Positions 10,304-57,555 of a stretch of DNA of 64,000 bases are shown one piece after another (within the stretch, counting starts at the first letter, position 1; the number at the start of each line of letters is the position of its first letter). The position numbers and the translations under genes are program-made. This DNA comes from Fundidesulfovibrio agrisoli (GTDB lineage Bacteria; Desulfobacterota; Desulfovibrionia; Desulfovibrionales; Desulfovibrionaceae): NCBI RefSeq assembly GCF_022808715.1, contig NZ_JAKZKX010000004.1, positions 124,001 to 188,000 on the forward strand, written 5' to 3'. A model generated the notes under the pieces. The model had not been told where the DNA came from and did not search any database. It saw only the letters and a program-made list of their open reading frames with translations.

Positions 10304-10359
10304 GGGTCGAGAATACGGTTAGGGCCCGGTTTGGTCAATTAAGGAAAAGCCGGAATGCT

Positions 10360-11709: not shown

Positions 11710-11712
11710 GGA

Positions 11713-13202: not shown

Positions 13203-13204
13203 GG

Positions 13205-40190: not shown

Positions 40191-42182
40191 CTAGAACCCG
40201 GCGTAGCCATGGCTCCCGCGCGAGCGGACCCGCCGCACCATCTCCAGCGCCTCCTGGGCGGTGAGCGGCCTGAGCGAGCCGTCCAGCGCCCCTTGGCCAA
40301 GCGGCCCCTGCGGGCCGAGAACGGCCTCCCTGCTCAGGGTGTGCTCCTGCGCCTCCAGGCCCAGGGAGTCGGCCACCTTTCGCAGGCAGGCCGCCTTGAC
40401 CTCTTGGTCGGCCTCGGGGGAGGCGGCGTCCTCGACACAGGGGTCGATGCGCATGCTGTCGATGAGCTCCGGGTGCTGGCCCAGGAAGCTGAAGAAGCGC
40501 TCCCCGAAGTCCCCCACGCAGAGCCTGACCCCGAACTTCTTCAACCGCCTGAGCTGCTCCGTGAGCCGCTCGGTGGATTCGAGCAGGCTGTGCTCGGGCA
40601 CCTCCAGGCGCAGGGCGCTGCCGGGGAGCCCCAGGTTCTGCAACGTCTCCTCCACTGCGTCGGGTATGCCGGAGCGGGGCACCAGGGACCGCCCCAGGTG
40701 CATGGTCAGGGCCAGGCCGCCGCAACCTGATTCCTCCCGCCAGGTGGCCAGTTGGGCCAGGCCTTCCGAGAGCGTGCGCTCCCACAGCTCCCACTCCAGG
40801 CTGGAGTGCTTGGCCAGGTTCCACAACTGCTTGCCGTAGATGAAGCCGCCCTGGCCGTCGTCCCAGGCGGGCACGGCCTCGAACCCTGTAAGGTTCGGCC
40901 CCTGCGCCGCGAAGGTTGGCACGAACAGCGCGGTGGTGCGGCCCGCGTGCAGTGCGCTGCGCAGCCGGGCCACGTGGGTGGTTCTGGATCGCTCCAGGGC
41001 GCGAAGCGCCTTGCAGTACACGCGGATGCGGTCCCGCCCGGCCTGCTTGGCGGCCTGCATGGCCACGTCGGCCTGCTCGATGAGCTCCTCAGGGGTGCTC
41101 AGGGAGCTGGGGCCGAAGGCCAGCCCGAAGCTGGCGCTGATGCCCAGGGAGAAGCCCTCCAGGTCCAGCGATTCGCCCAGGTTGGCGCGCACCCGCTTGA
41201 TGATGCGCACGGCCTCGCCGGGGCTGGTGAGGTCCTCCAGGAGGATGACGAACTCGTCGCCTCCGATGCGGGCCACGGTGTCCAGCTCGCGCAGGCCCTC
41301 CTGCACGCGCCTGCCCGTCTCCACAAGAAGGGCGTCGCCCGCGGCGTGGCCCAGATGGTCGTTGACGAGTTTGAAGCGGTCCAGATCCATGAAGGCGACG
41401 CAGAAGGCGGCGTTCTCCTGGTTGCGGTTCCGGCGCATGCCGCGGCGGATGGCCTGCATGATGCGGTCGCGAATGAGGGTGCGGTTGGGCAGGCCGGTGA
41501 GGGCGTCGTGCAGGGTCTGGTGCTTGAGCTGCTCCTCCACGGCGCGGCGGCGCTCGATTTCTCGGCGCAGGCTCCGCCGGGAGCGCTCCAGGTCGCGCAC
41601 GCGGTCCTTGAGTTGGGCGTTGGCGGAGCGCCACAGGCTGTAAAGCTCCACGCTCTCCAGCAGGGCGGCTGTGTTGCGCAGCACGATGGTCACCAGCTTG
41701 AGCGGGGCGTCCTGGATGGTCTTCACCTCCTGGTCCAGCAGGCCCAGGAGGATGCCCCGGATGCGCGAAGGCGTGCTCAGGGTGTGCACGAAGAGCTCGC
41801 CCTTGCCGGACTTGGGCGTGGTGAACACGGGCCCATCGCGGTGCAGGGCCCAGGGCGCGGACCCGGTTTCGGCCAGGTGGGCCATCTCCCGCTCGAAGAA
41901 GCGCCTGCGCGAGGGCGGCCAGCACTTGGCCAGGTTGAAGCCGCCGCCGGGTTCGCGGATGAGGTAGTAGGCAAGCGCCTTCATGGGCACCAGGCCCCTG
42001 ACGCGCTGGGCGGAGTCGGCCAGGACCTGGGCCGGGTTGTGCATGGAGCGGGGTGTGGCCCCGACGCCCATGGCCGTGGCGAGCTCAAGGGCTTCCATGG
42101 TCAGGCAATATGCCTGCTCCATGGCTTCGAGGCGTTGTTTGGGGCTGGCCCTGCGGGGTCTGCTCTCGGCCTGGCTAGCCAT
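40191..42182 (-). CDS. GGDEF protein with degenerate EAL domain
   Basis: A 663-residue soluble protein. Residues about 20-180 look GAF-like, followed by a coiled segment (SANAQLKDRVRDLERSRRSLRREIERRRAVEEQ) and a GGDEF domain with intact ARIGGDEFVILL. The last ~250 residues are EAL-like in spacing but have lost the motifs: GFEAVPAWDD for the EALLR start, VPEHSLLES for the Glu site, GDFGERFFSF for DDFGTG. It probably makes c-di-GMP and senses it, or is only a diguanylate cyclase. Its start overlaps the HDOD gene by eight bases, so both are made together. Confidence 0.85.
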   Translation of the reverse strand: MASQAESRPRRASPKQRLEAMEQAYCLTMEALELATAMGVGATPRSMHNPAQVLADSAQRVRGLVPMKALAYYLIREPGGGFNLAKCWPPSRRRFFEREMAHLAETGSAPWALHRDGPVFTTPKSGKGELFVHTLSTPSRIRGILLGLLDQEVKTIQDAPLKLVTIVLRNTAALLESVELYSLWRSANAQLKDRVRDLERSRRSLRREIERRRAVEEQLKHQTLHDALTGLPNRTLIRDRIMQAIRRGMRRNRNQENAAFCVAFMDLDRFKLVNDHLGHAAGDALLVETGRRVQEGLRELDTVARIGGDEFVILLEDLTSPGEAVRIIKRVRANLGESLDLEGFSLGISASFGLAFGPSSLSTPEELIEQADVAMQAAKQAGRDRIRVYCKALRALERSRTTHVARLRSALHAGRTTALFVPTFAAQGPNLTGFEAVPAWDDGQGGFIYGKQLWNLAKHSSLEWELWERTLSEGLAQLATWREESGCGGLALTMHLGRSLVPRSGIPDAVEETLQNLGLPGSALRLEVPEHSLLESTERLTEQLRRLKKFGVRLCVGDFGERFFSFLGQHPELIDSMRIDPCVEDAASPEADQEVKAACLRKVADSLGLEAQEHTLSREAVLGPQGPLGQGALDGSLRPLTAQEALEMVRRVRSRGSHGYAGF

Positions 42183-43428
42183 GTTCGTCGAGCAGGATGT
42201 GCCCGATGTCGTCGAGTTGGCGCTCGCCTTGGGCTGCCGCCGCGCCGAGCGCCGAGAGCGGGATGTTCATCTGCTCCCAGGCTTCGGGGATCAGGGGCGG
42301 GGCGGCCGGAGCGCCGCTTGCGCCCATGTGCAGGGTGTGGGCCATCAGGTCGGCCAGGTGCACCAGGGCGGCGTCCTGGCTGCTGGTGCGCGGGTCGTAG
42401 GCGTGGTGGTCCGCCACGGCGTGCTCCAGGGCCGGGGGGAAGCGCCAGGCCTGCAGCAGCCTGGAGCCGAGCGCGGCGTGGTCGAACCCCCAGGCCTCGC
42501 GTTCGGCTTCGGCCAGGGAGATGTCCTCCTCTTCGGCCAGGGCGATGGCCTGGGCCACGAGGGCCGGGTGGTTCTTGAGCATTATCAGGCGGCCCACGTC
42601 GTGCAGGAGCCCGGCCACGAAGCAGCGCTCCTCGTTGGGGTGGCCCGCGGTCACGGCCAGCAGGCGGGCCAGCACCCCGCAGGAGAGGCAGTGCTTCCAG
42701 AAGGAGCGCATGTCCAGGATGTCGCGGGGAATGTCGGAGAAGTAGCTTATCATGGAGACGCCCAGGGCCAGGCTGGTCAGGCGGTTGGCCCCCACCACGG
42801 TCACGGCGCGGTCGATGGTCTCCACGGGCTCGGGGAAGCTGTAGAGCGCGGAGTTGACCAGCTTGAGCAGCTTCGCGGAGAGGGCGGTGTCCTTGCCGAT
42901 GATGGAGGCCACGTAGCCGTAGGAGACGTTGGGGTTCTTGAGCGCCTCCAGGGTCTGGATGACCACCTGGGGCAGGGTGGCCAGCTTGCCGGCGCCGCTG
43001 GTGAGCTTGGCGATGCTCGGGCGCTTGCGCGGGTCGGGGGTGCGGGCCGCCGCCACCGGTGGGGTGGGCCTGGGGGCGCTGAAGGAGCCCTGCGGCGCAT
43101 GGCCGGACTGGATCATCTGGATCACGGCCACGCGGGCCAGTTCCTCGGCCGCCGGGTGGGCCGTGCCGCTCAGGCGCAGGCGCTGCGCGGCCTCGCGGGT
43201 ATAGGCCTGGGCGCGCTCGGGGCCGAGCAGCTCAAGGCGCTTGCGGTCCAGCTCGGCCTGGCTCTGGCCCTGGATGGCGACCTCGGTGACCCCCCAGAAC
43301 TTGAGCGTCTGGATGGAAAGCTCGTCGAGCCCGATGCCCTCGGAGAACAAAAGGCGGCCCTGGCGGCTGCGCGCGTCGGACGCCAGCACCATGCCGGGTT
43401 GCAAGTCCTCGATGTAGACCGTGCCCAT
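42175..43428 (-). CDS. HDOD domain signalling protein
   Basis: A 417-residue protein. Residues 1-60 resemble a small N-terminal beta region (QPGMVLASDARSRQGRLLFSEG) often seen in HD-type phosphodiesterases. The HDOD domain spans about 150-350 with LPQVVIQTLEALKNPNVSYGYVASIIGKD and the HD pair in VAGLLHDVGRLIM. HDOD proteins usually lack enzymatic activity and act in signalling. It starts 12 bases after GGAGAAC-like ribosome sequence. It is upstream of and overlaps the GGDEF gene. Confidence 0.88.
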   Translation of the reverse strand: MGTVYIEDLQPGMVLASDARSRQGRLLFSEGIGLDELSIQTLKFWGVTEVAIQGQSQAELDRKRLELLGPERAQAYTREAAQRLRLSGTAHPAAEELARVAVIQMIQSGHAPQGSFSAPRPTPPVAAARTPDPRKRPSIAKLTSGAGKLATLPQVVIQTLEALKNPNVSYGYVASIIGKDTALSAKLLKLVNSALYSFPEPVETIDRAVTVVGANRLTSLALGVSMISYFSDIPRDILDMRSFWKHCLSCGVLARLLAVTAGHPNEERCFVAGLLHDVGRLIMLKNHPALVAQAIALAEEEDISLAEAEREAWGFDHAALGSRLLQAWRFPPALEHAVADHHAYDPRTSSQDAALVHLADLMAHTLHMGASGAPAAPPLIPEAWEQMNIPLSALGAAAAQGERQLDDIGHILLDEHG

Positions 43429-43569: not shown

Positions 43570-44766
43570 ATGGCGGCGCCCACGACCTTCAACATACTGA
43601 TGTACTCCCACGACACCTACGGGCTCGGGCACATCCGCAGGACCATGGCCATAGCGAGCCACCTGCGGCGCACGGGCGTCAACGTGCTCATCCTCACCGG
43701 GTCGCCCCTGGTGGGCCGGTTCGACTTCCCCGAAGGGGTGGACTTCGTGCGCATCCCTGGGATGATCAAGAAGACCAACGACGAATACCTGCCTCTTTCC
43801 GTTCGCATGAGCGCGGCCCACGCCCTGAACATCCGGCGCAACATCATCGTTGCCACGGCCAAGGCCTTCCAGCCGCACCTCTTCATAGTGGACAAGGCCC
43901 CCCTGGGCCTCAAGAAGGAGGTGCTGCCCACGCTCAAGTGGCTCAAGCGCCGCCTGCCGCAATGCCGCACCATCCTGGGCCTGCGGGACATCATGGACGA
44001 CGCCGAGTCCACCAGGAAGGACTGGCGCGACAAGGGCATCTACGACGTGCTGGACCGCTTCTACTCCGAGATATGGGTCTACGGAAACCGCGACTACTAC
44101 GACCCCATCGCGGAATACGAGATCCCCGAGGCCGTTGGCGCCAAGATGTTCTTCACGGGCTACATCCCCCGGGCCCTGCCCAAGCGGGGCAAGATGCTGG
44201 AGATGCGCCAGGAGGAGCACCTGCACCAGAAGGAGCGCCTGGTGCTTGTGACCACGGGCGGCGGCGGCGACGGCTACCCCCTCATGGACGCCTACCTGAG
44301 CATGCTCGAAAACATGGAGAACCCGCCCTTCCGCTCCATCCTGGTCTCGGGGCCGTTCATGCCCAAGCCCATGCGCGAGGAGGTGCACCGCCGGGCCAAG
44401 AAGCTCAAGGCGCACTTCTACCACTTCCACAGGCGCATGGAGGCGCTCATGGGCCTGGCCGACGTGGTGGTCTCCATGGGCGGCTACAACACCACCTGCG
44501 AAATACTTTCCCTGCGCAAGCCCTCCCTGGTCGTCCCCCGCGAGGAGCCCCGGCTGGAGCAACGCATCCGGGCCGAGGTGTTCAAGAGCCACGGGCTCAT
44601 CGACTTCCTGCCCTGGGCCGACCTGACCCCGGAGAACCTGGGCCAGAAGGTGGGCGCGCTCATCGCCAACCCCCAGTCCTGCTGCCGGGGCATCGAGGGC
44701 TTCACGTTCACCGGGCTGGAGGCCATCTCCTCCCGTCTGGCCGAGTTCAGGGGGCTGCATCCATGA
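43570..44766 (+). CDS. MurG/GT28-like glycosyltransferase
   Basis: A 398-residue GT-B protein, first of a coupled six-gene cassette. The N-terminus NILMYSHDTYGLGHIRRTMAIASHLRR has the glycine-rich acceptor loop, and the C-terminal half reads TTGGGGDGYPL then VSMGGYNTTCEILSLRKPSLVVP, the donor-site signature of GT28/MurG-type enzymes. Length is about 40 residues above MurG. The ATG at 43570 has only a weak GGGG upstream. Its stop overlaps the next start (ATGA at 44763-44766). It resembles the gene at 47703-48863, which shares the YNTT motif. Confidence 0.85.
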   Translation: MAAPTTFNILMYSHDTYGLGHIRRTMAIASHLRRTGVNVLILTGSPLVGRFDFPEGVDFVRIPGMIKKTNDEYLPLSVRMSAAHALNIRRNIIVATAKAFQPHLFIVDKAPLGLKKEVLPTLKWLKRRLPQCRTILGLRDIMDDAESTRKDWRDKGIYDVLDRFYSEIWVYGNRDYYDPIAEYEIPEAVGAKMFFTGYIPRALPKRGKMLEMRQEEHLHQKERLVLVTTGGGGDGYPLMDAYLSMLENMENPPFRSILVSGPFMPKPMREEVHRRAKKLKAHFYHFHRRMEALMGLADVVVSMGGYNTTCEILSLRKPSLVVPREEPRLEQRIRAEVFKSHGLIDFLPWADLTPENLGQKVGALIANPQSCCRGIEGFTFTGLEAISSRLAEFRGLHP

Positions 44767-45995
44767 AGCGCCCCGTTCTGGGGATGATCCTCAAAGGCTA
44801 TCCGCGCATTTCCGAGACGTTCATATCCAACGAGATCGAGCTGCTGGAGGCCCAGGGCTTCGACATCCGCATCCTCTCCATGCGCCACCCCCGCGAGGAC
44901 TTCACGCACGAGTCGGTCAAGCGCATCAAGGCCCCCAGGCACTACCTGCCCGAGACCATCCAGGGCAACGCGGGCAGGCTCCTGGCCGCCAACCTGCTCT
45001 GCGCCCTGCGCTCGCCCGCGCGCTACGCCAGGGGCCTGGCGGAGATGCTCAGGCGCATCGTCCGCACCCGCAAGGCCACCACGGCCAAGCACCTGCTCCA
45101 GGCCGGGTATCTGGCCGCGCGGGTGCTGCCCGGCTCCGGGGTCACGCACCTGCACGCGCACTTCGCGCACTCGCCCACCTCGGTGGCCGTTTTCACGTCT
45201 CTGCTTACGGGGCTGCCCTACAGCTTCACCGCCCACGCCAAGGACATCTACACCCAGGACCCGGCCCGCCTCACCGAGAAGATCGCCGGGGCGCGCTTCG
45301 TGGCCACCTGCACCGGCTACAACAAGGACTACCTGGCGAAGCTCAATCCGAACGGCACGCCCATCCACCGGGTCTACCACGGCATCGACGTGCGCCTGTT
45401 CTCGCCCGTGGCGCATAGGCACAAAAGCGGCGAGGCCTTCGAGATACTCACCGTGGCCCGGCTGACGCCGAAAAAAGGCCTGCCCACGGTGCTGCGCGCC
45501 GTGGCGGAGCTGGTGAGGCGCGGCCACCCCGTGCGCCACACCATCATCGGCACCGGCGAGGAGAGAGAGGCCCTCCAGTCCCTGGCCGGGGAGTTGGGGA
45601 TCAGCGATGCGATCGACTGGCTTGGCGTGCAGGCCCACGAGGTGGTGGTTGCGCGCATGAGCCGGGCGGACCTGTTCCTGCTGGGCTGCGAGGTCAGCGG
45701 CAACGGGGACCGCGACGGCATCCCCAACGTGCTGGTGGAGGCCATGGCCATGGGCCTGCCCGTGGCGGCAACCGCCGTCTCGGCCATCCCGGAGCTGATC
45801 GTGGACGGCGAGCACGGGCTGCTGGTCCCCCCCGGGGACCACCTGGCCCTGGCCGATGCGGCCGAGCGCCTGCTCACCGACGAGGCGCTGCGGGCCATAG
45901 TGATCCCCGCCGCGCTGGAGCGCGTGCGCGAAAATTTCGACAACCGCAGGCTCGTGGGCGAGCTGGCCGCGATCTTCCGCGCAGCCATGTCATGA
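44763..45995 (+). CDS. GT4 glycosyltransferase
   Basis: A 410-residue GT-B protein. GT4 features: ILKGYPRISETFISNEIELLEAQG, LHAHFAHSPTSVAVF and ...YSFTAHAKDIY in the N-domain, then EILTVARLTPKKGLPTVLRA and IPNVLVEAMAMGLPVAATAVSAIPELI in the donor domain (E-x7-E). This subgroup transfers hexoses to polysaccharide intermediates. It overlaps both neighbours by four bases. Confidence 0.9.
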   Translation: MKRPVLGMILKGYPRISETFISNEIELLEAQGFDIRILSMRHPREDFTHESVKRIKAPRHYLPETIQGNAGRLLAANLLCALRSPARYARGLAEMLRRIVRTRKATTAKHLLQAGYLAARVLPGSGVTHLHAHFAHSPTSVAVFTSLLTGLPYSFTAHAKDIYTQDPARLTEKIAGARFVATCTGYNKDYLAKLNPNGTPIHRVYHGIDVRLFSPVAHRHKSGEAFEILTVARLTPKKGLPTVLRAVAELVRRGHPVRHTIIGTGEEREALQSLAGELGISDAIDWLGVQAHEVVVARMSRADLFLLGCEVSGNGDRDGIPNVLVEAMAMGLPVAATAVSAIPELIVDGEHGLLVPPGDHLALADAAERLLTDEALRAIVIPAALERVRENFDNRRLVGELAAIFRAAMS

Positions 45996-47116
45996 AGGCC
46001 GCCTTCTATTCCCCGTTCAAGCCCCTGGACCACCCCCGGCCCTCCGGCGACCAGACCACGGCGCTGGGCCTGACCGCGCACCTGCGCGCCAAGGGCCACA
46101 CGGTCGAGGTCGCCAGCCGCTTCCGGGCCCGCCACCTGGCGGAGCGCCCCTGGCTGTGGCCCCGGGCGTTCTGGGAGGCCTGGCGCGCGGGTAAAACACA
46201 CGCGGACGTCTGGCTGACGCACCACGCCTATTACAAATCCCCCGACGTGATCGGGCCGTGGGCCGCCCGGCGCATGGGCGTTCCCTACGCCGTGTTCCAG
46301 GGAATCTATTCCACCAAGCGGCGCAAGAATCTCACCACACGCCTTGGCTTCGAGCTCAACCGCCGCTCCCTGCTGGCCGCTGACGTGGTGTTCTCCAACC
46401 GCAGGCTGGACGTGGAGAACCTGCGCCGCCTGCTGCCCGAGGAGAAGATCGTCTACGTGGCCCCCGGCATCGACCCCGAGGCCTTCCGGCGCGACCCGGG
46501 CGCGGGCGCTGCGCTGAGGGAAAGCCTGGGCGCGGGCGGCAGGCCCGTGATCGCCTGCGTGGCCATGATGCGCGACGACGTGAAGGCCCAGGGCCTGCGC
46601 TACCTCATCACCCGCTTGGGCCGCCTGGAGCGGGATTTTCTGCTGCTCTTGGCGGGCGACGGTGAGACCCGCCCCGAAATGGAGGCCCTGGCCCGGGAGC
46701 ATCTGCCCGGCCGCTCGGCCTTCGTGGGGCAGGTGCCGCGCGGCGAACTGGGCCGGATCTACAGCGCAGCGGACCTGTTCGTCTTCCCCGGCATCCGGGA
46801 GAGCCTGGGCATGGTCTACCTGGAGGCCCAGGCCGCCGGGTTGCCCGTGGTGGCCTTCGACAACGGCGGCATCCCCGAGGTGGCCGCCCACGGGGAGACG
46901 GGCTTTTTGACTCCTCCCTTCGACGACGAGGCCTTCCTGAGCGCGGTGGCCCGCCTTCTGGACGACGCAGCCATGTGCCAGGCCATGGGAGTGGCGGCCC
47001 GGCAATACGTGTGTGAAAAGCACGACGCCCGCCGCAACTTCGACGTGGTGGAGGAGCGCCTGCGCCTGCTGGTGGAGGAGCGCCGTAACGCCCGATATCC
47101 GGGGGGCAGGGCGTGA
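45992..47116 (+). CDS. GT4 glycosyltransferase
   Basis: A 374-residue GT-B protein with SGDQTTALGLTAHLRAKGHTVE-like N-domain (note PSGDQTTALGL), ADLFVFPGIRESLGMVYLEAQAAGLPVVAF as donor site and APGIDPEAF as hinge. It is clearly a different GT4 subgroup from the previous gene. Four-base ATGA overlaps at both ends make it part of the coupled cassette. The substrate is unknown. Confidence 0.9.
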   Translation: MKAAFYSPFKPLDHPRPSGDQTTALGLTAHLRAKGHTVEVASRFRARHLAERPWLWPRAFWEAWRAGKTHADVWLTHHAYYKSPDVIGPWAARRMGVPYAVFQGIYSTKRRKNLTTRLGFELNRRSLLAADVVFSNRRLDVENLRRLLPEEKIVYVAPGIDPEAFRRDPGAGAALRESLGAGGRPVIACVAMMRDDVKAQGLRYLITRLGRLERDFLLLLAGDGETRPEMEALAREHLPGRSAFVGQVPRGELGRIYSAADLFVFPGIRESLGMVYLEAQAAGLPVVAFDNGGIPEVAAHGETGFLTPPFDDEAFLSAVARLLDDAAMCQAMGVAARQYVCEKHDARRNFDVVEERLRLLVEERRNARYPGGRA

Positions 47117-47706
47117 GCGCGCTCATCGCCCTGGTGCGCCACGGCCGCACCGCCTGGAACGAGGAGCGCCGCATCCAGGGCCGGGCCGACTCCCCGCTGA
47201 CGGAGGATGGCGCGCGCGAGGTGGCCGCCTGGCCCGCAACCCTCGCGGGTTACGGCTTTTCAGCGCTCTATTCCAGCCCCATCGGGCGCGCCGCGCTCAC
47301 CGCCGAGGCCCTCGGCCGGGGGCTCGGGCTTTCGGTGCGCATGGAGCCTGGGCTCGTGGAGCAGGAGTTCGGCTCCTGGACCGGGCTTACCGTGCCCGAA
47401 CTGCGCTCGGCCGGGCTGCTCGCCCCGCAGGAGGCCGCAGGCTGGGCCTTCACCCCCCCGGGCGGGGAGGCGCGCACCGAGGTGCTGGCCCGCTCCTGGG
47501 AGGCCCTGTCGCGCCTTGGCCGCGCGCACGAGGGCCGGTCCATCCTGGCCGTGACCCACGAGGGCGTGGTCCGCGCCGTTCTCTACGCCCTGCTCGGGCG
47601 GGACTACCTGCCCACGGAGCCCAAAATCCTCGCCCCGCGCGCCCTGCACCTGCTGCGCGCCGAGGGCGGCTGCCTGGCCATCGAGGCCATGAACCTGCCG
47701 CTATGA
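47113..47706 (+). CDS. Histidine phosphatase (phosphoglycerate mutase-like)
   Basis: A 197-residue protein starting at GTG 47113, which overlaps the previous stop (GTGA). The catalytic motif is LVRHGRTAWNEERRIQGRADSPLTEDG, with LYSSPIGRAALTAEAL and the second catalytic His in LAVTHEGVVRAVL. It belongs to the RHG phosphatase branch rather than glycolytic mutase. Its place among glycosyltransferases suggests removal of phosphate from a sugar or lipid carrier intermediate. That role is an inference from context. Confidence 0.88.
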   Translation: MSALIALVRHGRTAWNEERRIQGRADSPLTEDGAREVAAWPATLAGYGFSALYSSPIGRAALTAEALGRGLGLSVRMEPGLVEQEFGSWTGLTVPELRSAGLLAPQEAAGWAFTPPGGEARTEVLARSWEALSRLGRAHEGRSILAVTHEGVVRAVLYALLGRDYLPTEPKILAPRALHLLRAEGGCLAIEAMNLPL

Positions 47707-48863
47707 ACATCGTCTTCTACTGCCAGCACGTGCTCGGCCTGGGGCACTACATGCGCAGCCTGGCCATCGTGCGGGCCCTGGCCCCGCACCGCGTCGTCTT
47801 CGTCACGGGCGGGCCGGACGTGCCCGCCGGGCTCGGCCCGCATGTTGTGCACGAGCGGCTGCCCGTGCTCAGCATGGACGAGGAATTCTCGCAGATGCTG
47901 GCCCAGGGCGACCCCGAGGCCGTCAAGTCGGAGCGCCGCGAGCGGCTGCTGGCCATCCTGGAGCGCGAGCGCCCGGACGCCTTCGTGGTGGAGCTCTATC
48001 CCTTCGGCAGGCGGGCCTTCGAATTCGAGCTGGTCCCGGCGCTGCAGGCCATCCGGGAAGGCGCCTTCGGCAGGCCCCGGGTGCTGTGCAGCCTGCGCGA
48101 CATCCTGGTGGAGAAGGCCGACCCCGGGAAGTACCAGGCCCGCGTGCTCAAGCGGCTCGAGGAATTCTTCGACGGCTTGCTGGTGCACTCCGACCCGGCG
48201 CTCTTCCCCCTGGAGGAGACCTTCCCCCGCGCCCGTGAGATTACCATTCCGGTTGAATACACCGGGTTCGTGGTGGAGCGGCCCACCCCCGGAGCCCGGG
48301 AGCGCGTGCGCGCGGAACTGGGCCTGACCATTGGGGATACGCTCATCGTGGCCAGCGCCGGTGGCGGCAAGGTGGGCTCCGAGCTGCTGTTCTCGGCGGT
48401 GGCCGCCTACCCGTTGCTTACGCTTTTCCCGGAACCGCGCCTGGAGGTTTTCAGCGGACCGTTCCTTGACGAAACGGTCTATAAGCGGTTAGGGGCCGAT
48501 GCCTGCCCGCACTCGGGCATCCGGGTGTCCCGATTCGCCGGGAACTTCCCCGACCTCCTGGCCGGAGCTGATGTCTCCCTGTCGCTGGCCGGATACAACA
48601 CGACGATGAACGTCCTCGCTGCCGGGGTTCCGGCGCTGGTCTGGCCTTTCGCCCAGAACCGTGAGCAGTCCATGCGCGCGCTGCGGTTGCAGTCCATGGG
48701 CGCGCTGGGCGTTCTCGGGCAGGCCGACCTGGAGCCGGCCCGCCTGGCCCGGCTCGTGGAGGCCCTGGCCCGCGGGGGCCGCCCCGAAGGGGGCTGCCCG
48801 GTGCGCCTGGACGGCGCGGAGCGGGCCGCGCGGTTGATCCTCCACGGACAACGGCGGCTGTAA
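47703..48863 (+). CDS. MurG/GT28-like glycosyltransferase
   Basis: A 386-residue GT-B protein: CQHVLGLGHYMRSLAIVRAL at the N-terminus, VASAGGGKVGSELL and LSLAGYNTTMNVLAAGVPALVWPF in the donor domain. It parallels the first gene of the cassette (GLGH and YNTT motifs) but is clearly diverged. ATGA overlap with the phosphatase gene. It ends 29 bases before the deacetylase. Confidence 0.85.
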   Translation: MNIVFYCQHVLGLGHYMRSLAIVRALAPHRVVFVTGGPDVPAGLGPHVVHERLPVLSMDEEFSQMLAQGDPEAVKSERRERLLAILERERPDAFVVELYPFGRRAFEFELVPALQAIREGAFGRPRVLCSLRDILVEKADPGKYQARVLKRLEEFFDGLLVHSDPALFPLEETFPRAREITIPVEYTGFVVERPTPGARERVRAELGLTIGDTLIVASAGGGKVGSELLFSAVAAYPLLTLFPEPRLEVFSGPFLDETVYKRLGADACPHSGIRVSRFAGNFPDLLAGADVSLSLAGYNTTMNVLAAGVPALVWPFAQNREQSMRALRLQSMGALGVLGQADLEPARLARLVEALARGGRPEGGCPVRLDGAERAARLILHGQRRL

Positions 48864-48892
48864 CATTCTAACCAACGGCATCTCAGGTTTCC

Positions 48893-49687
48893 ATGATCGT
48901 CTCCAACAATGTCTCTCCCATTTGGCTGGCCATCCCCGACAACTACCGCACCCGGCTGATCCAGGCCGCCGAACTGGGCCTGTCCCAGGCTCCGGGCGGA
49001 CGCGCCCAGGTGTTCTTCCGCGCCGACGACGTTGCCGTGCCCGGCAACAGCTTCACCAAAATGGTGGGCATCTTCCGCGAGGGCGGCGCGCCCCTGTGCA
49101 TGGCCACGGTGCCCTCCTGGCTGACGGTGAGCCGCTGGCAGGCCCTGCTCAAGGAGGCCCGCGAGGACGAACTGTTCTGCTGGTGCCAGCACGGCTGGAG
49201 GCACATGAATTTCGAGCCCGTGGGGCAGAAGAAGCGCGAGTTCGGCCAGGCCCGCCCCGCCAAGGACAAGCGCCTGGACCTGACCAAGGGCTTCAAGCGC
49301 CTGGGCGAGATCATGGAGCAGCGCTTCACCCCGGTGTTCAGCCCGCCCTGGAACCGTTGCGACGGCGAATCCATGGCCGCCATGCCCGCCATCGGCTTCA
49401 GGGGGCTCTCCCGCACCGTAGGGGCCGGGCCCAACCCTCCCGAAAACCTGCCGGACTTCCCCGTGCGCATGGACCTGCACACCCGCAAGGAGCCCGACCC
49501 CCAGGCCTCCCTCGAAGCCATGCTCGATGAAATGCGCCAGGGCCTGGCCAGCGGCCGCCTGGGCGTCATGCTGCATCACCAGCGCATGAACGACGCGGCG
49601 GGCGTGTTCCTGGCCGCCCTCATCAAGGAGCTGGGCGCGCTGAAGGTCGATTTCACCGATTTCAGGCGGCTGCTGGCCGCCAGCTAG
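48893..49687 (+). CDS. Polysaccharide deacetylase-like protein, cytoplasmic
   Basis: A 264-residue protein with the NodB metal triad: FFRADDVAVPG (Asp-Asp, near residue 43), CQHGWRHMNF (HxxxH near 103), and FSPPWNRCD where the domain continues. The usual TFDDG is replaced by FRADDV, and the fold appears compact. There is no signal peptide, so it acts in the cytoplasm, in contrast to the Tat enzyme at 27214-28278. It probably deacetylates a sugar in the precursor made by the four glycosyltransferases upstream. Confidence 0.8.
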   Translation: MIVSNNVSPIWLAIPDNYRTRLIQAAELGLSQAPGGRAQVFFRADDVAVPGNSFTKMVGIFREGGAPLCMATVPSWLTVSRWQALLKEAREDELFCWCQHGWRHMNFEPVGQKKREFGQARPAKDKRLDLTKGFKRLGEIMEQRFTPVFSPPWNRCDGESMAAMPAIGFRGLSRTVGAGPNPPENLPDFPVRMDLHTRKEPDPQASLEAMLDEMRQGLASGRLGVMLHHQRMNDAAGVFLAALIKELGALKVDFTDFRRLLAAS

Positions 49688-49902: not shown

Positions 49903-50346
49903 ATGCGAAACGCCTTCATCCTCGTGGCCTTCGTGGCCGGGGCCCTGGTGCCCATCCAGGCCGGGCTCAACATCCAGCTGCGCAAGGTGCTGGGCGACCC
50001 CGTCCAGGCCTCCTTCATCTCCTTCCTGGTGGGCACGCTGGCCCTGGGCGTCTACAGCCTGGCGGCCAGACACACCTGGCCCTCGCTTACGGAAATGGCC
50101 TCCACGCCGCTGTGGCTCTGGACGGGCGGGCTGATGGGCGCGGCGTTCGTCACGGCCACGATCCTGGTTGGCCCCAGGCTTGGGGCCGCCTCCATGACGG
50201 CCTTCATGCTCATGGGGCAGCTGGTGGCCTCCGTGGTGCTGGACCACTACTCCTTCGTGGGCTACCCGGAGCACCCCGTGAGCTGGGCGCGCCTGGCGGG
50301 CGTGGGGCTGTTGGCGCTGGGGGCCTGGATGATCAAAGCATTCTGA
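49903..50346 (+). CDS. YdcZ/DUF606-type small membrane protein
   Basis: A 147-residue protein with four to five hydrophobic helices, half the length of a full drug/metabolite transporter. The helices MRNAFILVAFVAGALVPIQAG and ...FISFLVGTLALGVYSL match the YdcZ (DUF606) family, a small DMT-like transporter that works as a dimer. Substrate unknown. GGGAGC precedes the ATG. No partner copy is nearby. Confidence 0.85.
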   Translation: MRNAFILVAFVAGALVPIQAGLNIQLRKVLGDPVQASFISFLVGTLALGVYSLAARHTWPSLTEMASTPLWLWTGGLMGAAFVTATILVGPRLGAASMTAFMLMGQLVASVVLDHYSFVGYPEHPVSWARLAGVGLLALGAWMIKAF

Positions 50347-50358: not shown

Positions 50359-51021
50359 TCAGCGCCGCTCGAACAGGGCGTCGGCCGCGCTCAGGTTCCC
50401 ATCCTCGTCGAACCAGGGGCGGTAGAGCCCCCGCACCCTGAAGCCCCGGCCCTCCATCCAGTCCATGAGCTCGCCCGCCAGGGGCTGGCCCTTGTACATC
50501 CCCGCGAAGGAAACCTCGCACAGCACCCCCCGCACTCCGCCCAGGAGGCCCTCCGCGCCGCGCAGGGCCTCCAGTTCGTAGCCCTGCAGGTCCAGCTTGA
50601 TGAGCTGGGGCGAGTCGCGCAGATCCTCGTCCAGGCGCACCACCTGCACCTCGACGCGCCGGGCCACGCCCATGGGTTTGTCAGGGTGTTTCTGCAGGAT
50701 GGCGTCAGGCTCCAGCAGGGAGGAGCACGTCGCGCTCTCCAGTTCGTTGATGACCAGGCGCGCGGGCGCGGAGCCCAATGCCGCCTCGCGCAGGCGCACC
50801 CGGGCGTCGTCCTTGAAGCGCTTGCCCAGTTTGCGGGCCAGGCGGGGCAAGGGTTCGTAGGCCACCACGGAGCCCAGCGGGAGCAGCTCCAGCAGGCGGG
50901 CCACGGTGCGGCCCTTGTTGGCTCCGCCGTCCACAATCAGGGGGCTGGCTGAACCGGCCAGTGCGGCCAGGGCGGGGAAGGGGTCCTCGACGGGGAAGAG
51001 GGGCCAGGTCGTGCTGTTCAT
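50359..51021 (-). CDS. FkbM-family methyltransferase
   Basis: A 220-residue SAM-dependent methyltransferase. Motif I is LIVDGGANKGRTVARLL (DxGxNxG), followed by VVAYEPLPRLARKL, and FkbM-type VVRLDEDLRDSPQLIKLDLQGYELEALRGAEGLL. The family O-methylates sugars or polyketides and is common in glycan clusters. Convergent with the YdcZ gene. Confidence 0.88.
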   Translation of the reverse strand: MNSTTWPLFPVEDPFPALAALAGSASPLIVDGGANKGRTVARLLELLPLGSVVAYEPLPRLARKLGKRFKDDARVRLREAALGSAPARLVINELESATCSSLLEPDAILQKHPDKPMGVARRVEVQVVRLDEDLRDSPQLIKLDLQGYELEALRGAEGLLGGVRGVLCEVSFAGMYKGQPLAGELMDWMEGRGFRVRGLYRPWFDEDGNLSAADALFERR

Positions 51022-51086
51022 GGCGGGGGAGAGTAGATGCCTCGCGGCCTGCGGGCAAGGGGAGAGGGAAAATCAATTTTGATATT

Positions 51087-51105
51087 GACAATGAGAATCG
51101 TTTTC
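51087..51105 (+). promoter_or_regulatory. Fur box
   Basis: GACAATGAGAATCGTTTTC matches the 19-base Fur consensus GATAATGATAATCATTATC at 15 positions. It lies 93 bases upstream of the TPR-like gene, whose transcription should therefore be repressed when iron is plentiful. Confidence 0.75.
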
Positions 51106-51197
51106 AGTTAACCATGGCCAACGGGACACGGAAAGGGCAAGGCCCGAGGCGCACGCCAGGTCAGCCCTCCGCCCCAGCAGACGAGAGGAGTACCGCC

Positions 51198-51611
51198 ATG
51201 ACAACCAGATCATCCATCGGCTCTTCGGAGCGCCCACGGGATATGTTTTCGAGCATCCTCAAGCCCCTGGCCCAGGCCCAGAGCGATAGCTGCGGCTGCG
51301 GCGGCGGATGCCGGGCCAAGGCCATGACCCGCCTGAACCGCGAGGGCATGGAGGCCTGTCAGGCCGGCGACTTCGCCGGGGCGGACAAGCTGCTCTCGCA
51401 GGCCATAGGCATGGCCCGCAAGGCCGGAGTGTCCATGTACGAGGCCAAGATGCGCAACAACCTGGGCCTGGTGCACCTGCTGGCCAGCCGCCCGGACGAC
51501 GCCCGGCGCGAATTCGGAGCCGCGCTGGACCTGGTGGCGGGCAAACTCGGGCGCGAGAACCCGCTGTACAAGAAGATCGAAGGCAACATGAGCCAGACCC
51601 GGGCCGCCTGA
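51198..51611 (+). CDS. Iron-regulated Cys-motif/TPR-like small protein
   Basis: A 137-residue cytoplasmic protein. The N-terminal part carries DSCGCGGGC (three Cys and a run of Gly, near residue 31), which could hold a metal. Two to three helical repeats follow (NREGMEACQAGDFAGADKLLSQAIGMARKAGVS and KMRNNLGLVHLLASRPDDARREFGAALDL), typical of TPR. The start at 51198 has AGAGGAG eight bases upstream. A Fur box lies in the promoter. The role is probably in iron stress; no known family name comes to mind. Confidence 0.75.
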   Translation: MTTRSSIGSSERPRDMFSSILKPLAQAQSDSCGCGGGCRAKAMTRLNREGMEACQAGDFAGADKLLSQAIGMARKAGVSMYEAKMRNNLGLVHLLASRPDDARREFGAALDLVAGKLGRENPLYKKIEGNMSQTRAA

Positions 51612-51720
51612 GGGCCGTAGCAAATTCCCTCCCACCGCCTTGCCGTAGGCCGGGTTTCGCGCGAGCCGTTCGCGCGGGGCCCGGCCGAACATTTCTGGAA
51701 AAATGAGAAACGCGCCCGGC

Positions 51721-53190
51721 TCAACCCGTGGGGTTCGAGCGCTCCGGGTGGCCCCGATGGGCGCGCTGCACGCTCATGACGAAGCAGGCCACGTTGTCCT
51801 TCTGCTCGAAGGTCAGCGAGCCGCCCATGGTGCGCAGCAGCCTGTGGCAGAAGGGCAGGCCGATGGTGTCGCCGCCTTCGTCGAAGGGCAGGAAGACCTT
51901 GTCCACGTCGGGCACGGGAGTGGCCTGTCCGCCGCAGACCTCCAGGTGCAGGAAACGCTCGCTCTCGAAGGTGCGCAGCCACATGCCGCCCTTTGGTGGC
52001 AGGTTGGCCAGGGTGGAGCGGATCAGGTTGATGACAACCTGTGTGAGCAGCTCCGCGTCCTCCTCCACTGTGGCCGAGGCGATGTCCTGGAGGAACCGGG
52101 GCGCGACGCCGTTGGCCTCCAGCTCCGGCGAGAGCAGGTCCAGGCATTTGCCCGCGATGGCCCCCAGGTCGCAGGGCTCGCGGTGGAGCTTCACGGGGCT
52201 CAGGTAGTCGCGGATGCGGTCCAGGATGCGCTCCAGGCGCTGGGCCTCGTCCAGGATCACCTGGGCCTCGGCGGATTCTGGCTGCTTTTTGACCAGCCTG
52301 CGCGCATACCCCGCGATGGAGACCAGCGGGTTGCGGATCTCGTGCGCCACCTCGGCGGAGATTGCGCCCAGGGTCTTCACCTTCTCCTTCTGAACCAGAT
52401 ATTTCTCCAGCATCAGCCGGTCGGTGATGTCGAGCACCACGCCCTCAACCTGGGGCCGCTCGCAGGTCGCGCCGCAAGGCGGCGTGGGAATGCTCTTGAT
52501 GATGCCGTGCACCACCCGGCCGGACTTGCGCAGCATCCGGCAGGTCTTGGAAAAGGCGAAGGCCCCGTCCTGCAGGCGCTGGTTCAGGCTGCCCCGCACG
52601 CGCTCGCGGTCCTCGGGGTGGATGCGCTCCAGGAACCAGCCCTCCCGGGTGCGGGCCTCTTCGGGGGTGAAGCCCAGCATGCCCATGCAGGCGCTGTTCA
52701 CGAACTGCACGTTCAGGTGGTCGTCCAGGCTGAAGATCATCAGCGGGATGTTGTGCACCAGGTTGGAGTAGCGGGCCTCGGCCCGGCGCACCTGGATGGT
52801 CAGCTCCCGGCGCTCCAGCACGGCGGACACCGCGTGGGCCAGCAGGTCGAAGCTCTCGATGGGCTTGATGATGTAGTCCCAGGCGCCGAGGCGGAAGGCG
52901 TGGATGGCGTCCTGGATGTCGGCGCGGCCGGAGATCACGATCACGGGGGTGTCGTCGCCGATGCGCCGTTTTTCCTCCAGGAAGGCCAGGCCGTCCATCA
53001 CCGGCATGCGCAGGTCCAGCAGAACGAGGTCGGGCTTGGTGGCGCTGAGGGCCACCAAACCCTCGATGCCGCTGCCGGCTTCGACGGCCTTGTAACCGGC
53101 ATCCTCTATCCAGGCCACGAGGGTGCTGCGGACGGCGATGTCGTCGTCCACGGTGAGGATGATGCGGGGGCTGGCTTCTTGCTGGGTCAT
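51721..53190 (-). CDS. Hybrid sensor histidine kinase, receiver-PAS-kinase
   Basis: A 489-residue protein with an N-terminal receiver (LTVDDDIAVRSTL, phospho-Asp in VLLDLRMPV, Lys in IIKPI), a PAS domain (residues about 140-250), a HisKA helix with AHEIRNPLVSI, and an ATPase region. The N box is present in LIRSTLANLPP, but the G1 box normally D-x-G-x-G reads VCGGQAT, and the G2 region reads GDTIGLPF. Kinase activity may thus be reduced. The unusual order, receiver first, suggests a phosphorelay member. GAGGGG precedes the ATG at 53190. Confidence 0.85.
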   Translation of the reverse strand: MTQQEASPRIILTVDDDIAVRSTLVAWIEDAGYKAVEAGSGIEGLVALSATKPDLVLLDLRMPVMDGLAFLEEKRRIGDDTPVIVISGRADIQDAIHAFRLGAWDYIIKPIESFDLLAHAVSAVLERRELTIQVRRAEARYSNLVHNIPLMIFSLDDHLNVQFVNSACMGMLGFTPEEARTREGWFLERIHPEDRERVRGSLNQRLQDGAFAFSKTCRMLRKSGRVVHGIIKSIPTPPCGATCERPQVEGVVLDITDRLMLEKYLVQKEKVKTLGAISAEVAHEIRNPLVSIAGYARRLVKKQPESAEAQVILDEAQRLERILDRIRDYLSPVKLHREPCDLGAIAGKCLDLLSPELEANGVAPRFLQDIASATVEEDAELLTQVVINLIRSTLANLPPKGGMWLRTFESERFLHLEVCGGQATPVPDVDKVFLPFDEGGDTIGLPFCHRLLRTMGGSLTFEQKDNVACFVMSVQRAHRGHPERSNPTG

Positions 53191-53313
53191 GTGCGTCCCC
53201 TCGGAAGAGGCTGACTCCATCAATGGGCGAAATCGGGGGTTATGGCAAGAGGCGCACATAAAAGGGGGGCCGGATGGCCCCCCTTTGTGCGTCAGGCGGG
53301 ATGCGGCTCGACC

Positions 53314-53661
<348 letters not shown>

Positions 53662-55278
53662 CTAGCGGTGGGTCTTGTTCACGGAGAAGTCGGGGTAGGC
53701 GGTGACGCCGACTTCCGCCTCGTCCAGGCCGTCGCGCTCGATCTCGGGGCTCACGCGCAGCTTCACGAACACGTTGAGCACCTTGAAGAAGACGAAGAAG
53801 GCCACGAAGACGAAGATGAAGTTGGTCAGCACGCCGATGCACTGGGCCATGAACTGGCCGGAATCGCCGTAGAGCAGGCCCTTCACGGTGCCCTCGACGG
53901 TGTTCAGGGCGTCGCCGTAGGTGCCGTCCGCGAAGATGCCCACGGCCAGCAGGCCCCAGGCGCCGTTGACGCCGTGCACCGAGATGGCGCCCACGGGGTC
54001 ATCCACCTTCAGGGTGCGGTCGACGAAGAAGACGCTCACGCACAGCAGCACGCCGGCGATCAGGCCGATGATGATGGCCGAGGAGGCGTTGACGAAGGCG
54101 CAGGGGGCCGTGATGGCGACCAGGGCCGCCAGCAGGCCGTTGGCGGCCATGGAGGCGTCGGGTTTGCCGTAGACGAGCCACATGTACAGCAGGGCGGAGA
54201 AGGAACCAGCGGCGGAGGCCAGCATGGTGTTGGTGGCCACGATGCCGATGCGCAGGTCGGAACCGGCCAGGGTGGAGCCGGCGTTGAAGCCGAACCAGCC
54301 GAAGGCCAGGATCAGGCAGCCGGCAATGGCCATGGGGATGTGATGGCCGGGGATGGCGTTGACCTTGCCGCCGGGGCCGTACTTGCCGAGGCGGGGTCCG
54401 AGGCAGATGGCGCCCGCCAGGGCCGCCACGCCGCCGGTCATGTGCACGACGGAGGAGCCCGCGAAGTCGACGACGCCGTGGCCCAGGCTGAAGTTCTTGC
54501 CCAGCGTGGAGAGCCAGCCGCCGCCCCACACCCAGTTGGCGTACAGGGGGTAGATGAACATGGACATGTAGAAGCCGTAGATCACGAAGGATTTGAAGGT
54601 CCAACGTTCGGCCATGGAGCCGGTGGGGATGGTCACGGCGGTGTCCATGAAGACCATCTGGAAGAGGAACATGGTGAAGATGGCCACGTCATAGGCGTCG
54701 CCCCCAAGCAGGAAGCCCTTGAGGCCGAAGAGGCCGAAGTCCTTCCCGAAGAGGGTGATGGCGAACTCGGTGTCCATGGTGCCGCCGCCGCCCAGGGTGA
54801 CGAAGGGGCCCGCGCCGCCCATCTGCAGGGCGTAACCGGTGAGCCAGTAGCCGAGCATGCCGATGCCGTAGACCATGAAGTTCATGGTCATGGTGTGGGC
54901 GGCGTTCTTGGCGCGGGTGAAGCCGGTCTCGGCCAGGGCGAAGCCCAGCTGCATAAACATGACCAGGAAGCCGCAGACCAGCGTCCAGACGAAGTTGATG
55001 GAGATCTTGTTCTTGCCCGCAGCCTCGGCGGCTTTGGCGGCAAGGGGCTCCTTCTCGCTCATGGCGGCGAGCTCTTCCTTGGTGGGCGCGTTGGCCGCGT
55101 AGCCGATGATGTCAGCGGCGGTGCCGAGGGTGGCGCCGGTCGGATCGGGCTTGGCCGGTTCGGCGGCGGCCTCGGCGGCGGGGGCTTCAGGTTTGGCGTC
55201 CTGGGCCATGGCGGCCAAGGGCAGGCACGCCAGGCTGAACATTACGCTCAGGACGAGGCACGAGAGGAGCTTTTTCAT
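53662..55278 (-). CDS. amtB: Ammonium transporter with long N-terminal periplasmic extension
   Basis: A 538-residue protein. A signal peptide (residues 1-26, ending AAMAQ) and a ~65-residue Ala/Pro/Glu/Lys-rich segment precede the 11-helix Amt core. The pore His pair is in SSVVHMTGG and ISVHGVNGAWG. The family usually has a shorter N-terminus. It is paired with the PII gene. Its divergent partner is a second amtB. Confidence 0.95.
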   Translation of the reverse strand: MKKLLSCLVLSVMFSLACLPLAAMAQDAKPEAPAAEAAAEPAKPDPTGATLGTAADIIGYAANAPTKEELAAMSEKEPLAAKAAEAAGKNKISINFVWTLVCGFLVMFMQLGFALAETGFTRAKNAAHTMTMNFMVYGIGMLGYWLTGYALQMGGAGPFVTLGGGGTMDTEFAITLFGKDFGLFGLKGFLLGGDAYDVAIFTMFLFQMVFMDTAVTIPTGSMAERWTFKSFVIYGFYMSMFIYPLYANWVWGGGWLSTLGKNFSLGHGVVDFAGSSVVHMTGGVAALAGAICLGPRLGKYGPGGKVNAIPGHHIPMAIAGCLILAFGWFGFNAGSTLAGSDLRIGIVATNTMLASAAGSFSALLYMWLVYGKPDASMAANGLLAALVAITAPCAFVNASSAIIIGLIAGVLLCVSVFFVDRTLKVDDPVGAISVHGVNGAWGLLAVGIFADGTYGDALNTVEGTVKGLLYGDSGQFMAQCIGVLTNFIFVFVAFFVFFKVLNVFVKLRVSPEIERDGLDEAEVGVTAYPDFSVNKTHR

Positions 55279-55940
55279 ACCTTACCTCCAAACAATATAC
55301 TCAATGGATTTACGCTTTTGTCCAAGTCGGCATGTTGAGTCGAACGATTTGTTCAACATTCTGTTATTTATGAAGAATCTATGGGTGCGAGCATGTGATT
55401 CCCCCTTGTCGAACCAGGGCGCGGCTTCACGCTGCCCTCCCAACGCGCCTCACTGAGGCAAGTCGTCCTTCGGAGCGGTAGCCGAAAAAAGCAGTTGGTT
55501 TGTGTCTATATCGTTAAGATGCTCAATTCAAGACTAAATTACCACTTTTGTAAATTTCAAAAAGGAAAGGTAAGCGGGGTGACACAAAGGACATGGGGCA
55601 TCGCCCGGGTGGCGGATTTCCTGGGAAATCGGCGGCTCTGCGCGCAAATTATCAGTCTGGACGATGAGTTGTTTCGAGGTGGTCAGGAGGGGGGATCACC
55701 CGGATGGCATGCGCGGAGCGCCCTGGGCAGCCCAGGTGCATACAATTTTGAATGAGTTTTGAAAATTGAGCGAAGCTTACAAAAAATACTTGCAAAAGTG
55801 TAAAAACAGCTCTAGTCATGAAGCCGTGCAGCCGACCGGGCGGAACAGGCAGGAGCGTCCGGTAGGGAAAACGGCCAGCGCAGGTCCCCGGCAGGACAGC
55901 CCTGCCGGGGGGCCACCCACGAAAACAGGAGGACATCTAT
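55279..55940. promoter_or_regulatory. Long divergent region between two ammonium transporter genes
   Basis: About 660 bases, with two AT-rich segments (about 55290-55390 and 55490-55580) and another near 55740-55810, in contrast to the flanking genes. No reading frame in it has protein-like composition. It should hold both promoters and nitrogen control sites. I could not place a confident -24/-12 site. A hairpin near the right end is listed separately. Confidence 0.5.
55886..55910 (+). promoter_or_regulatory. Leader hairpin before the second amtB
   Basis: A perfect 10-bp stem: CCCCGGCAGG (55886-55895) with CCTGCCGGGG (55901-55910), loop ACAGC. No T tract follows. It lies about 30 bases before the amtB start, just upstream of the AGGAGG ribosome site. 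It may affect translation or mRNA stability. Confidence 0.55.
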
Positions 55941-57152: not shown

Positions 57153-57164
57153 GGAGCGACCCCC

Positions 57165-57503
57165 ATGCGCAAGATCGAAATCATCACCCGGCCCTACAAG
57201 CTGGAAGACATCAAGAAGGCACTCACCGACGCGGGCGTGAAGGGCATGACCGTCTCCGAGGTCAAGGGCTTCGGCCGCCAGCGCGGGCACAAGGAAATCT
57301 ACCGCGGGGCGGAGTACCAGGTGGACTTCGTACCCAAGATCAAGATAGAGCTGGTCATCGACCAGGCCATCGTCCCCGCGGTGCTCAAAGCCGTGGAAGG
57401 CGCCGCCCGCACGGGCGAGGTGGGAGACGGCAAGATCTTCATCACCCCCGTGGAAGAAGTGGTGCGCATCCGCACCGGCGAAACGGGCAAAGACGCCATC
57501 TAA
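57165..57503 (+). CDS. glnK: Nitrogen regulatory protein PII (GlnK-type)
   Basis: A 112-residue PII protein. The T-loop (GHKEIYRGAEY) keeps the uridylylated Tyr51; the B loop is [11 protein letters not shown]. It follows amtB, as glnK does in most bacteria, and precedes glnD, which modifies it. It differs from the other PII in about a third of residues. Confidence 0.95.
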   Translation: MRKIEIITRPYKLEDIKKALTDAGVKGMTVSEVKGFGRQRGHKEIYRGAEYQVDFVPKIKIELVIDQAIVPAVLKAVEGAARTGEVGDGKIFITPVEEVVRIRTGETGKDAI

Positions 57504-57516
57504 CCGAACCAACACG

Positions 57517-57546
57517 AAAAGGGGCCGGACATCCGGCCCCTTTTTT
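57517..57546 (+). terminator. Terminator between glnK and glnD
   Basis: GGGGCCGGA (57521-57529) pairs with TCCGGCCCC (57532-57540) and is flanked by AAAA and six T (57541-57546). It may uncouple glnD from the amtB-glnK transcript, although glnD starts only nine bases later. Confidence 0.85.
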
Positions 57547-57555
57547 CATTTTCGT

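Follow-up and report, generated by a model that had tools for sequence, protein, structure and literature searches.

Cytoplasmic assembly of a glycan followed by its export through an ATP-binding cassette (ABC) transporter is a known kind of bacterial pathway. In the Nod factor pathway (NodC, NodB, NodA, NodIJ), as with ArnD, a NodB-fold deacetylase without a signal peptide acts on the sugar before ABC export, and the GT28 and GT4 glycosyltransferase families include glycolipid synthases. A sequence of transfer, dephosphorylation and deacetylation is found in mycothiol synthesis, in which MshA produces GlcNAc-Ins-P, MshA2 takes off its phosphate and MshB then deacetylates the product (PMC4360819). 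Here we describe a six-gene cassette in a 64,000-nucleotide stretch of Fundidesulfovibrio agrisoli (contig NZ_JAKZKX010000004.1, positions 124,001 to 188,000; hereafter the window), which encodes two GT28-like (A and E) and two GT4 glycosyltransferases (B and C), a histidine phosphatase (D) and a predicted deacetylase (F). Its order is conserved in two phyla, and in related genomes it occurs together with two ABC-type transport loci.

We have not found this combination described, and no description of the gene set turned up in the open-access literature, subscription papers lying outside the search. With respect to mycothiol, the cassette shares the possible succession of a transferase that places GlcNAc on a phosphorylated acceptor, then a phosphatase and a deacetylase (PMC4360819), whereas it has three further glycosyltransferases, co-occurring exporters and no cysteine ligase. 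F has the signal-less NodB fold of the Nod factor and ArnD systems, but the cassette holds neither a NodC-type GT2 nor a NodA and F is divergent. A and E carry the Glyco_tran_28_C domain of MurG but differ from it in score and, in the case of E, in a replaced glutamate. One transport locus encodes an exporter with the ABC_membrane and ABC ATPase domains of MsbA-type lipid exporters, from which it differs in its lower score, in an ATPase split by an insertion and in a neighbouring protein that binds cyclic nucleoside monophosphates (cNMP). The other pairs a LolD-like ABC ATPase with permeases of the FtsX type as in the LolCDE and MacB extractors, but contains in addition a permease of ~1650 amino acids (aa), a DUF6785/DUF6784 protein and another protein of ~650 aa.

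Conservation of the cassette

We confirmed that the cassette is a real six-gene unit on the forward strand, at 43570-49687 of the window (Table 1), in a source genome of 3.9 Mb and 52 contigs. The coupling of the first five genes by four-base overlaps, claimed in a previous sequence-only reading of this DNA, proved exact at all four junctions; F follows E after a gap of 29 bases, and the G+C content at third codon positions is 0.89-0.94 in all six genes. A plain Kyte-Doolittle scan revealed a strongly hydrophobic N-terminus in none of the six proteins, the sole scan window above 1.6 being a weak internal peak in B. This agrees with the same reading's statements that the deacetylase lacks a signal and that the sugar steps appear to take place in the cytoplasm, where the cassette apparently works. 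A NodB-type deacetylase without a signal is not odd in itself, because NodB and ArnD are cytoplasmic or cytoplasm-facing precedents.

The same gene order was sought in samples of 59 related genomes, 198 genomes of the phylum and 398 Pseudomonadota genomes. A contig scan with E yielded 41 loci, from Desulfobacterota, cyanobacteria (22 loci) and one gammaproteobacterium (Motiliproteus). As such a scan finds only E-bearing loci, we added searches anchored on A, which gave strong matches in 14 further genomes of the phylum sample (a weaker one in G248 was set aside) and likewise strong ones in 30 Pseudomonadota genomes besides Motiliproteus (a weak one in G383 was set aside); 26 of these 30 loci were fetched, leaving out G408, G480, G528 and G610. 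The full A-B-C-D-E-F order is present in 8 of the 26 fetched Pseudomonadota loci, in 2 of the 14 fetched A-anchored loci of the phylum sample (L223 and L224) and, all sources counted, in 12 Desulfobacterota loci other than the window (L062, from the window's own genus, L065, L071, L073, L075, L129, L130, L131, L133, L134, L223 and L224; L262 also has it, but was taken as the same place as L075 and counted once). The order therefore recurs in Desulfobacterota and Pseudomonadota, and it is kept even though E is 35% and F 29% identical to a Pseudomonadota counterpart. Conservation of a six-gene set in two phyla is far beyond chance.

In the case of the cyanobacteria, A and E are both present in 21 of the 22 loci, some of them with B, together with other glycosyltransferases, and several of these loci encode a protein of ~620 aa that groups with ABC proteins. 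In rhizobia the genes are carried on plasmids: those of Sinorhizobium medicae and S. meliloti have A, B and E, with C and F nearby and D not seen, and Rhizobium leguminosarum-type strains have A-B-E, the cassette genes of strain 3841 lying on pRL11. The Rhizobium desiccation-tolerance ABC operon RL2975-RL2977 (PMC5596212) was considered as a description of this locus and dropped given that replicon. Beside A-B-E of S. medicae (L242) we also observed an annotated polysaccharide lyase (6563-7531) and an annotated ABC importer set of ATPase, substrate-binding protein and two permeases (7936-13895), which might serve to recover pieces of the product.

In a tree of A (67 of the 72 aligned rows, the remainder falling outside the length limits), 18 of the 21 Desulfobacterota rows, the window included, form one supported clade, 23 of the 27 Pseudomonadota rows stand beside it, and the 19 cyanobacterial rows form a clade of their own. 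The closest relative of A found is from a Desulfovibrionaceae metagenome-assembled genome, at 84% identity. From this distribution and this tree, the cassette looks old rather than recently imported.

Part of the set also occurs separately. C-D-F stands alone, in that order and without A and E, in G008 (L261, 6630-9316, reverse strand), and C and F adjoin in 3 of the 26 Pseudomonadota loci and, by annotation, on three rhizobial plasmids, which suggests that C-D-F is a sub-module. The sequence-only reading had placed the phosphatase in the middle of the pathway; gene order is not reaction order, so that its position in the cassette does not establish this, but the enzyme may act there all the same, since C-D-F is also found as a separate unit.

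Transport loci that accompany the cassette

No transporter lies inside the six-gene cassette. In many Desulfobacterota, it runs directly into genes for a small FtsX permease, a LolD-like ATPase, a giant FtsX protein of ~1650 aa, a DUF6785/DUF6784 protein and a hydrophobic protein of ~650 aa. The giant protein has its FtsX domain at the end and a sub-threshold match to a PA domain near the start, and the best NCBIfam model of the small permease is LolC/E (55 bits, cut-off 362). The ~650-aa protein has no Pfam match; we considered it as a relative of DUF6785, to which it is 21-22% identical in a MAFFT alignment, but dropped this assignment, BLASTP giving a best E-value of 4.3 and Pfam nothing. 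The predicted model of the DUF6785 protein (predicted local distance difference test, pLDDT, 50.7, from 7 sequences) was too poor and was left out of the fold search, and no mention of DUF6785 was found in the open-access papers searched. The window's genus is represented by 7 genomes, and in each of them the module is on a different contig from E; in the window's genome it is at about 113.5-123.7 kb of G000:C1.

The second transport gene encodes an exporter of ~840-920 aa, with ABC_membrane and ABC ATPase domains, and has a cNMP-binding protein as its neighbour. An insertion divides the ATPase match of the exporter in two, the match covering about residues 362-470 and resuming from about 680, and for the Desulfobacterota form (L252, 7945-10473) the best NCBIfam model is MsbA (TIGR02203), at 306.5 bits against a cut-off of 602. 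The window's genome has it at G000:C15:12347-14842, also with a cNMP-binding neighbour. It lies within the fetched locus in 12 of the 26 Pseudomonadota loci and at the Motiliproteus locus, and on the rhizobial plasmids an annotated ABC gene of matching size stands, with a cNMP-binding or Crp/Fnr-type gene, beside A-B-E. At 1e-30 the exporter query matched 26 of 28 chosen holder genomes, the exceptions being the two cyanobacteria. In L252 (5462-7752), genes for a SpoIIE phosphatase, an HATPase and a STAS protein adjoin the exporter, with homologues in L253, L254 and L256; they are a possible switch for it.

Across the 59 related genomes, gene E (17 genomes, E-value 1.2e-79 or better), giant FtsX (17, E-value 0) and DUF6785 (17) are present in exactly the same genomes. 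The thresholds fall in wide gaps: the next genome for E is at 2.1e-7, weaker matches being set aside in 17 of 34 matching genomes, and the next for giant FtsX at 1.5e-8, with 31 of 48 set aside. The exporter (E-value at or below 1e-60) is found in 16 of the 17 E-bearing genomes and in none of the 42 others; the E-bearing genome without it, G006, is 66% complete. With genomes taken as independent, the chance of a perfect 17-in-59 match is 3.6e-15 and that for 10 of 41 genera 9e-10, figures that kinship makes too small. In addition, all four are present or absent together within genera, being found in two of the five genomes of g33 and in one of the four of g40.

These data revise the suggestion of the sequence-only reading that export is missing. 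Its statement that no flippase, polymerase or export gene is included holds inside the cassette but not genome-wide, where two transport gene sets co-occur with it, one of them contiguous in many relatives, and the search for a partner transport gene that it had recommended led to the FtsX/LolD/DUF6785 module and the MsbA-like exporter. Because these loci follow the cassette genome by genome, we reject the view that the set lacks an exporter.

In a search of 33 holder genomes, behind 34 of the 41 loci of the E scan, giant FtsX was present in 15 of 15 Desulfobacterota (in pieces in G354; some of these genomes are perhaps also among the 59) and, beyond weak partial matches, in 0 of 17 cyanobacteria and not in the one Motiliproteus. 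DUF6785 was found in 0 of 31 Pseudomonadota holders, a search with no positive genome of its own, the same query being positive among the 59 relatives.

Enzymes of the cassette

The family labels of the sequence-only reading for the first five genes were borne out, all Pfam matches being at or above the curated cut-off. Glyco_tran_28_C (PF04101) is matched by A with 50.4 and by E with 32.3 bits (cut-off 22), and MurG is the best sequence match among solved structures for both profiles. That reading had called them two MurG-like enzymes, which is right as regards the domain but not as regards MurG itself, an identity that we reject: the murG model TIGR01133 gives 24.2 (A) and 23.4 bits (E) against a cut-off of 250.25, about ten times below it. 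Glu311 of A, which from its motif we take to be the donor ribose-binding glutamate of MurG-type enzymes, is invariant (70 of 70 rows, in the alignment of 72). At this position E has Asn in the window gene, in 24 of 26 rows from Desulfobacterota and in all of the 32 cyanobacterial rows that carry a residue at it; of the 23 rows from Pseudomonadota, 18 have Asp. Several unusual copies were also seen: in L063 (655-3756) two copies of E flank F (E-F-E); in L233 (10887-15221, reverse strand) a homologue of A ends a frame of 1444 aa that also holds unrelated-looking sequence, a possible fusion or frame artefact; and in L093, L096 and L097, draft cyanobacterial contigs, A and/or E are split in two frames, perhaps through sequencing errors or decay.

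B and C match Glycos_transf_1 with 115.5 and 111.4 bits (cut-off 26.4). The best NCBIfam models for B are EpsE and WcaL, both below cut-off, and assignment to a PEP-CTERM/XrtA or exopolysaccharide EpsE cluster was rejected, the stp2, stp3 and EpsE models all falling below cut-off with EpsE for B as the best (173.3 of 400 bits). Likewise, C is neither MshA (70.6 of 462.5 bits) nor BshA (86.1 of 273.7) by these models. Among solved structures, its sequence relatives include Tll1590, maltose-1-P synthase, BshA (5d00) and the 'predicted glycosyltransferase' 3c48, which we take to be MshA, a further likeness to mycothiol synthesis. No curated pathway model tested reached its cut-off, in keeping with the sequence-only reading, which had recognised no known pathway here.

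D belongs to branch 1 of the histidine phosphatase superfamily (PF00300, 157.1 bits). R9 and H10 are kept in 28 of 28 rows and R59, E83 and H149 in 29 of 29; these correspond to the catalytic Arg-His, Arg, Glu and His of the branch. Its nearest solved structures are the broad phosphatase 1ebb/1h2e, then phosphoserine phosphatase 1 and glucosyl-3-phosphoglycerate phosphatase (4pz9). Alpha-ribazole phosphatase CobC was rejected as its identity (103.2 bits, TIGR03162 cut-off 162.9).

F has no Pfam or NCBIfam match at an E-value of 0.01 and no Protein Data Bank match by sequence, and the protein at 7756-8526 of L206 has no Pfam family at that value either. Its AlphaFold model (mean pLDDT 90.4) has the NodB/CE4 deacetylase fold, with VIA-align Z scores of 18.1 to 3rxz, 16.6 to 2c1i and 15.6 to ArnD (8t0j); Foldseek, ranked by E-value, places a viral turret protein first and CE4 deacetylases after it. 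D45, D46, H100, H104 and H228 are invariant in 34 of 34 rows and correspond by motif to the Asp and two His metal ligands, the catalytic Asp and the distal His of CE4 enzymes. Because of the model fold and the conserved metal ligands we class F, despite the lack of a profile match, as a predicted divergent NodB/CE4-fold deacetylase of a separate family, in agreement with the NodB-like sixth gene of the sequence-only reading.

Proposed pathway and alternatives

From the folds, the conserved residues, the conserved order and the co-occurrence with two ABC-type loci we infer a set of reaction steps. C would transfer an N-acetylhexosamine onto a small acceptor that bears a phosphate, D would remove this phosphate from the product and F would take off the acetyl group; A, B and E would lengthen the chain. 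The mycothiol-like logic of C, D and F is proposed because of the mycothiol precedent and of the solved relatives of D (4pz9) and C (BshA). The MsbA-like exporter would then flip a short amino-sugar oligosaccharide or glycolipid, which in Desulfobacterota the FtsX/DUF6785 module might handle further. We consider the chances about evenly balanced that the cassette directs the cytoplasmic assembly of an ABC-exported amino-sugar oligosaccharide or glycolipid with such a transfer, dephosphorylation and deacetylation step. A more far-reaching proposal, which we put forward tentatively, is that the six genes, with a related GT28 pair in cyanobacteria, are the cytoplasmic core, in two phyla, for an undescribed envelope glycoconjugate exported by a new subtype of MsbA-like transporter with a split ATPase coupled to a cNMP sensor and, in Desulfobacterota, moved on by a new trans-envelope machine of a LolD-type ATPase, the ~1650-aa FtsX permease, the DUF6785 protein and the further membrane protein. 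If true, this would be the first pathway for the giant FtsX and DUF6785 families.

Several observations weigh against the proposed pathway. Co-occurrence is no proof that the exporters carry the product of the cassette, and the fetched stretch of 14 of the 26 Pseudomonadota loci shows no exporter. G008 has C-D-F without a match to A, E, the FtsX module or the exporter. D occurs without C in L067, L069, L070, L074, L076, L098, L215, L222 and L238, some of these loci being cut by contig ends, while rhizobia-like loci, L209 and L214 among them, have C but no D, so that a strict C-to-D dependency is not supported. G030 has no F, nor has the cassette of G054, and among the A-anchored loci of the phylum sample the fetched stretch shows E in only 6 of 14 and giant FtsX in 3. 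Judged from fetched stretches and not whole genomes, the set thus either holds together less tightly outside the window's order or has its genes dispersed over the genome. As for the enzymes, F has a NodB fold while MshB is an LmbE-type enzyme, and the change from Glu to Asn or Asp in E, as far as sequence can tell, may mean another donor or a changed or unusual role.

The principal alternatives concern the nature of the product. It is somewhat unlikely that it is a membrane glycolipid in which a lipid acceptor bears an amino-sugar head group, and which the exporter flips and the LolD/FtsX module sorts, a reading in line with the glycolipid synthases of the GT28 and GT4 families and with MsbA and LolC/E as the best, if sub-threshold, models of the exporter and the small permease; no lipid-modifying gene was found tied to the cassette, although no systematic search was made. 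We regard as unlikely that the cassette makes a polyprenyl-linked repeat unit of a surface polysaccharide, with a general flippase and polymerase elsewhere and the transport loci serving other things. The acceptor of MurG, the best solved match of both GT28 profiles, is polyprenyl-linked, and EpsE and WcaL are the best models for B, but the cassette tracks the ABC loci genome by genome, and neither a flippase nor a polymerase was among the recurrent neighbours run through Pfam, a part of all neighbours, whole genomes not being searched.

A small soluble pseudo-oligosaccharide (cofactor, osmolyte or secondary metabolite) seems quite improbable to us: the succession of GT4, phosphatase and deacetylase, as in mycothiol synthesis (PMC4360819), and the C-D-F unit without A and E in G008 would fit it, but a purely internal product would need none of the transport loci, and all 17 E-bearing relatives have these. 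The five families recognised are each common, which could bring unrelated sugar genes together, but we reject chance adjacency as extremely improbable given the order kept between phyla at such low identity and the four 4-base overlaps. Returning to an exported amino-sugar product, the gene set is widespread and not a local oddity: sulfate reducers have it whole, Sinorhizobium plasmids carry most of it and Rhizobium plasmids A-B-E, and cyanobacteria have a related GT28 pair. The plasmid carriers are hosts where genetics is easy, and three loci that are unlinked in the window's genome and are gained and lost together offer a handle on DUF6785, the giant FtsX permease and a conserved but undescribed glycan.

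Neighbouring genes

Table 1. Features of the cassette and its downstream neighbours (window coordinates)
Feature	Position	Strand	Basis
Gene A, GT28-like GT-B glycosyltransferase, 398 aa	43570..44766	+	Pfam PF04101
Gene B, GT4 glycosyltransferase, 410 aa	44763..45995	+	Pfam Glycos_transf_1
Gene C, GT4 glycosyltransferase, 374 aa	45992..47116	+	Pfam Glycos_transf_1
Gene D, histidine phosphatase branch 1, 197 aa	47113..47706	+	Pfam PF00300 (His_Phos_1)
Gene E, second GT28-like glycosyltransferase, 386 aa	47703..48863	+	Pfam PF04101
Gene F, predicted divergent NodB/CE4-fold deacetylase, 264 aa	48893..49687	+	Predicted fold and invariant residues
A/B overlap, ATGA	44763..44766	+	Exact, 4 bases
B/C overlap, ATGA	45992..45995	+	Exact, 4 bases
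C/D overlap, GTGA	47113..47116	+	Exact, 4 bases
D/E overlap, ATGA	47703..47706	+	Exact, 4 bases
DMT_YdcZ membrane protein, downstream of cassette	49915-50346		Pfam
FkbM-type methyltransferase, convergent, possible accessory gene	50359..51021	-	Pfam PF05050

The FkbM methyltransferase has a homologue, 47% identical, after E in one other genus (g25, L124), and no match in 10 other loci tested, among which L242 has an annotated FkbM-family gene. From 50359 to 60135 the window continues with this methyltransferase, a hybrid sensor, ammonium transporters and GlnD; in L124 we saw by eye, after E, FkbM followed by sensor-like, Amt-like, PII-like and GlnD-like frames, and given this similar row the gene setting downstream of the cassette may be old. 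On the other side, a GGDEF-EAL protein and an HDOD protein, whose genes overlap by 8 bases, are encoded at 40191-43428 on the reverse strand and transcribed away from the cassette.

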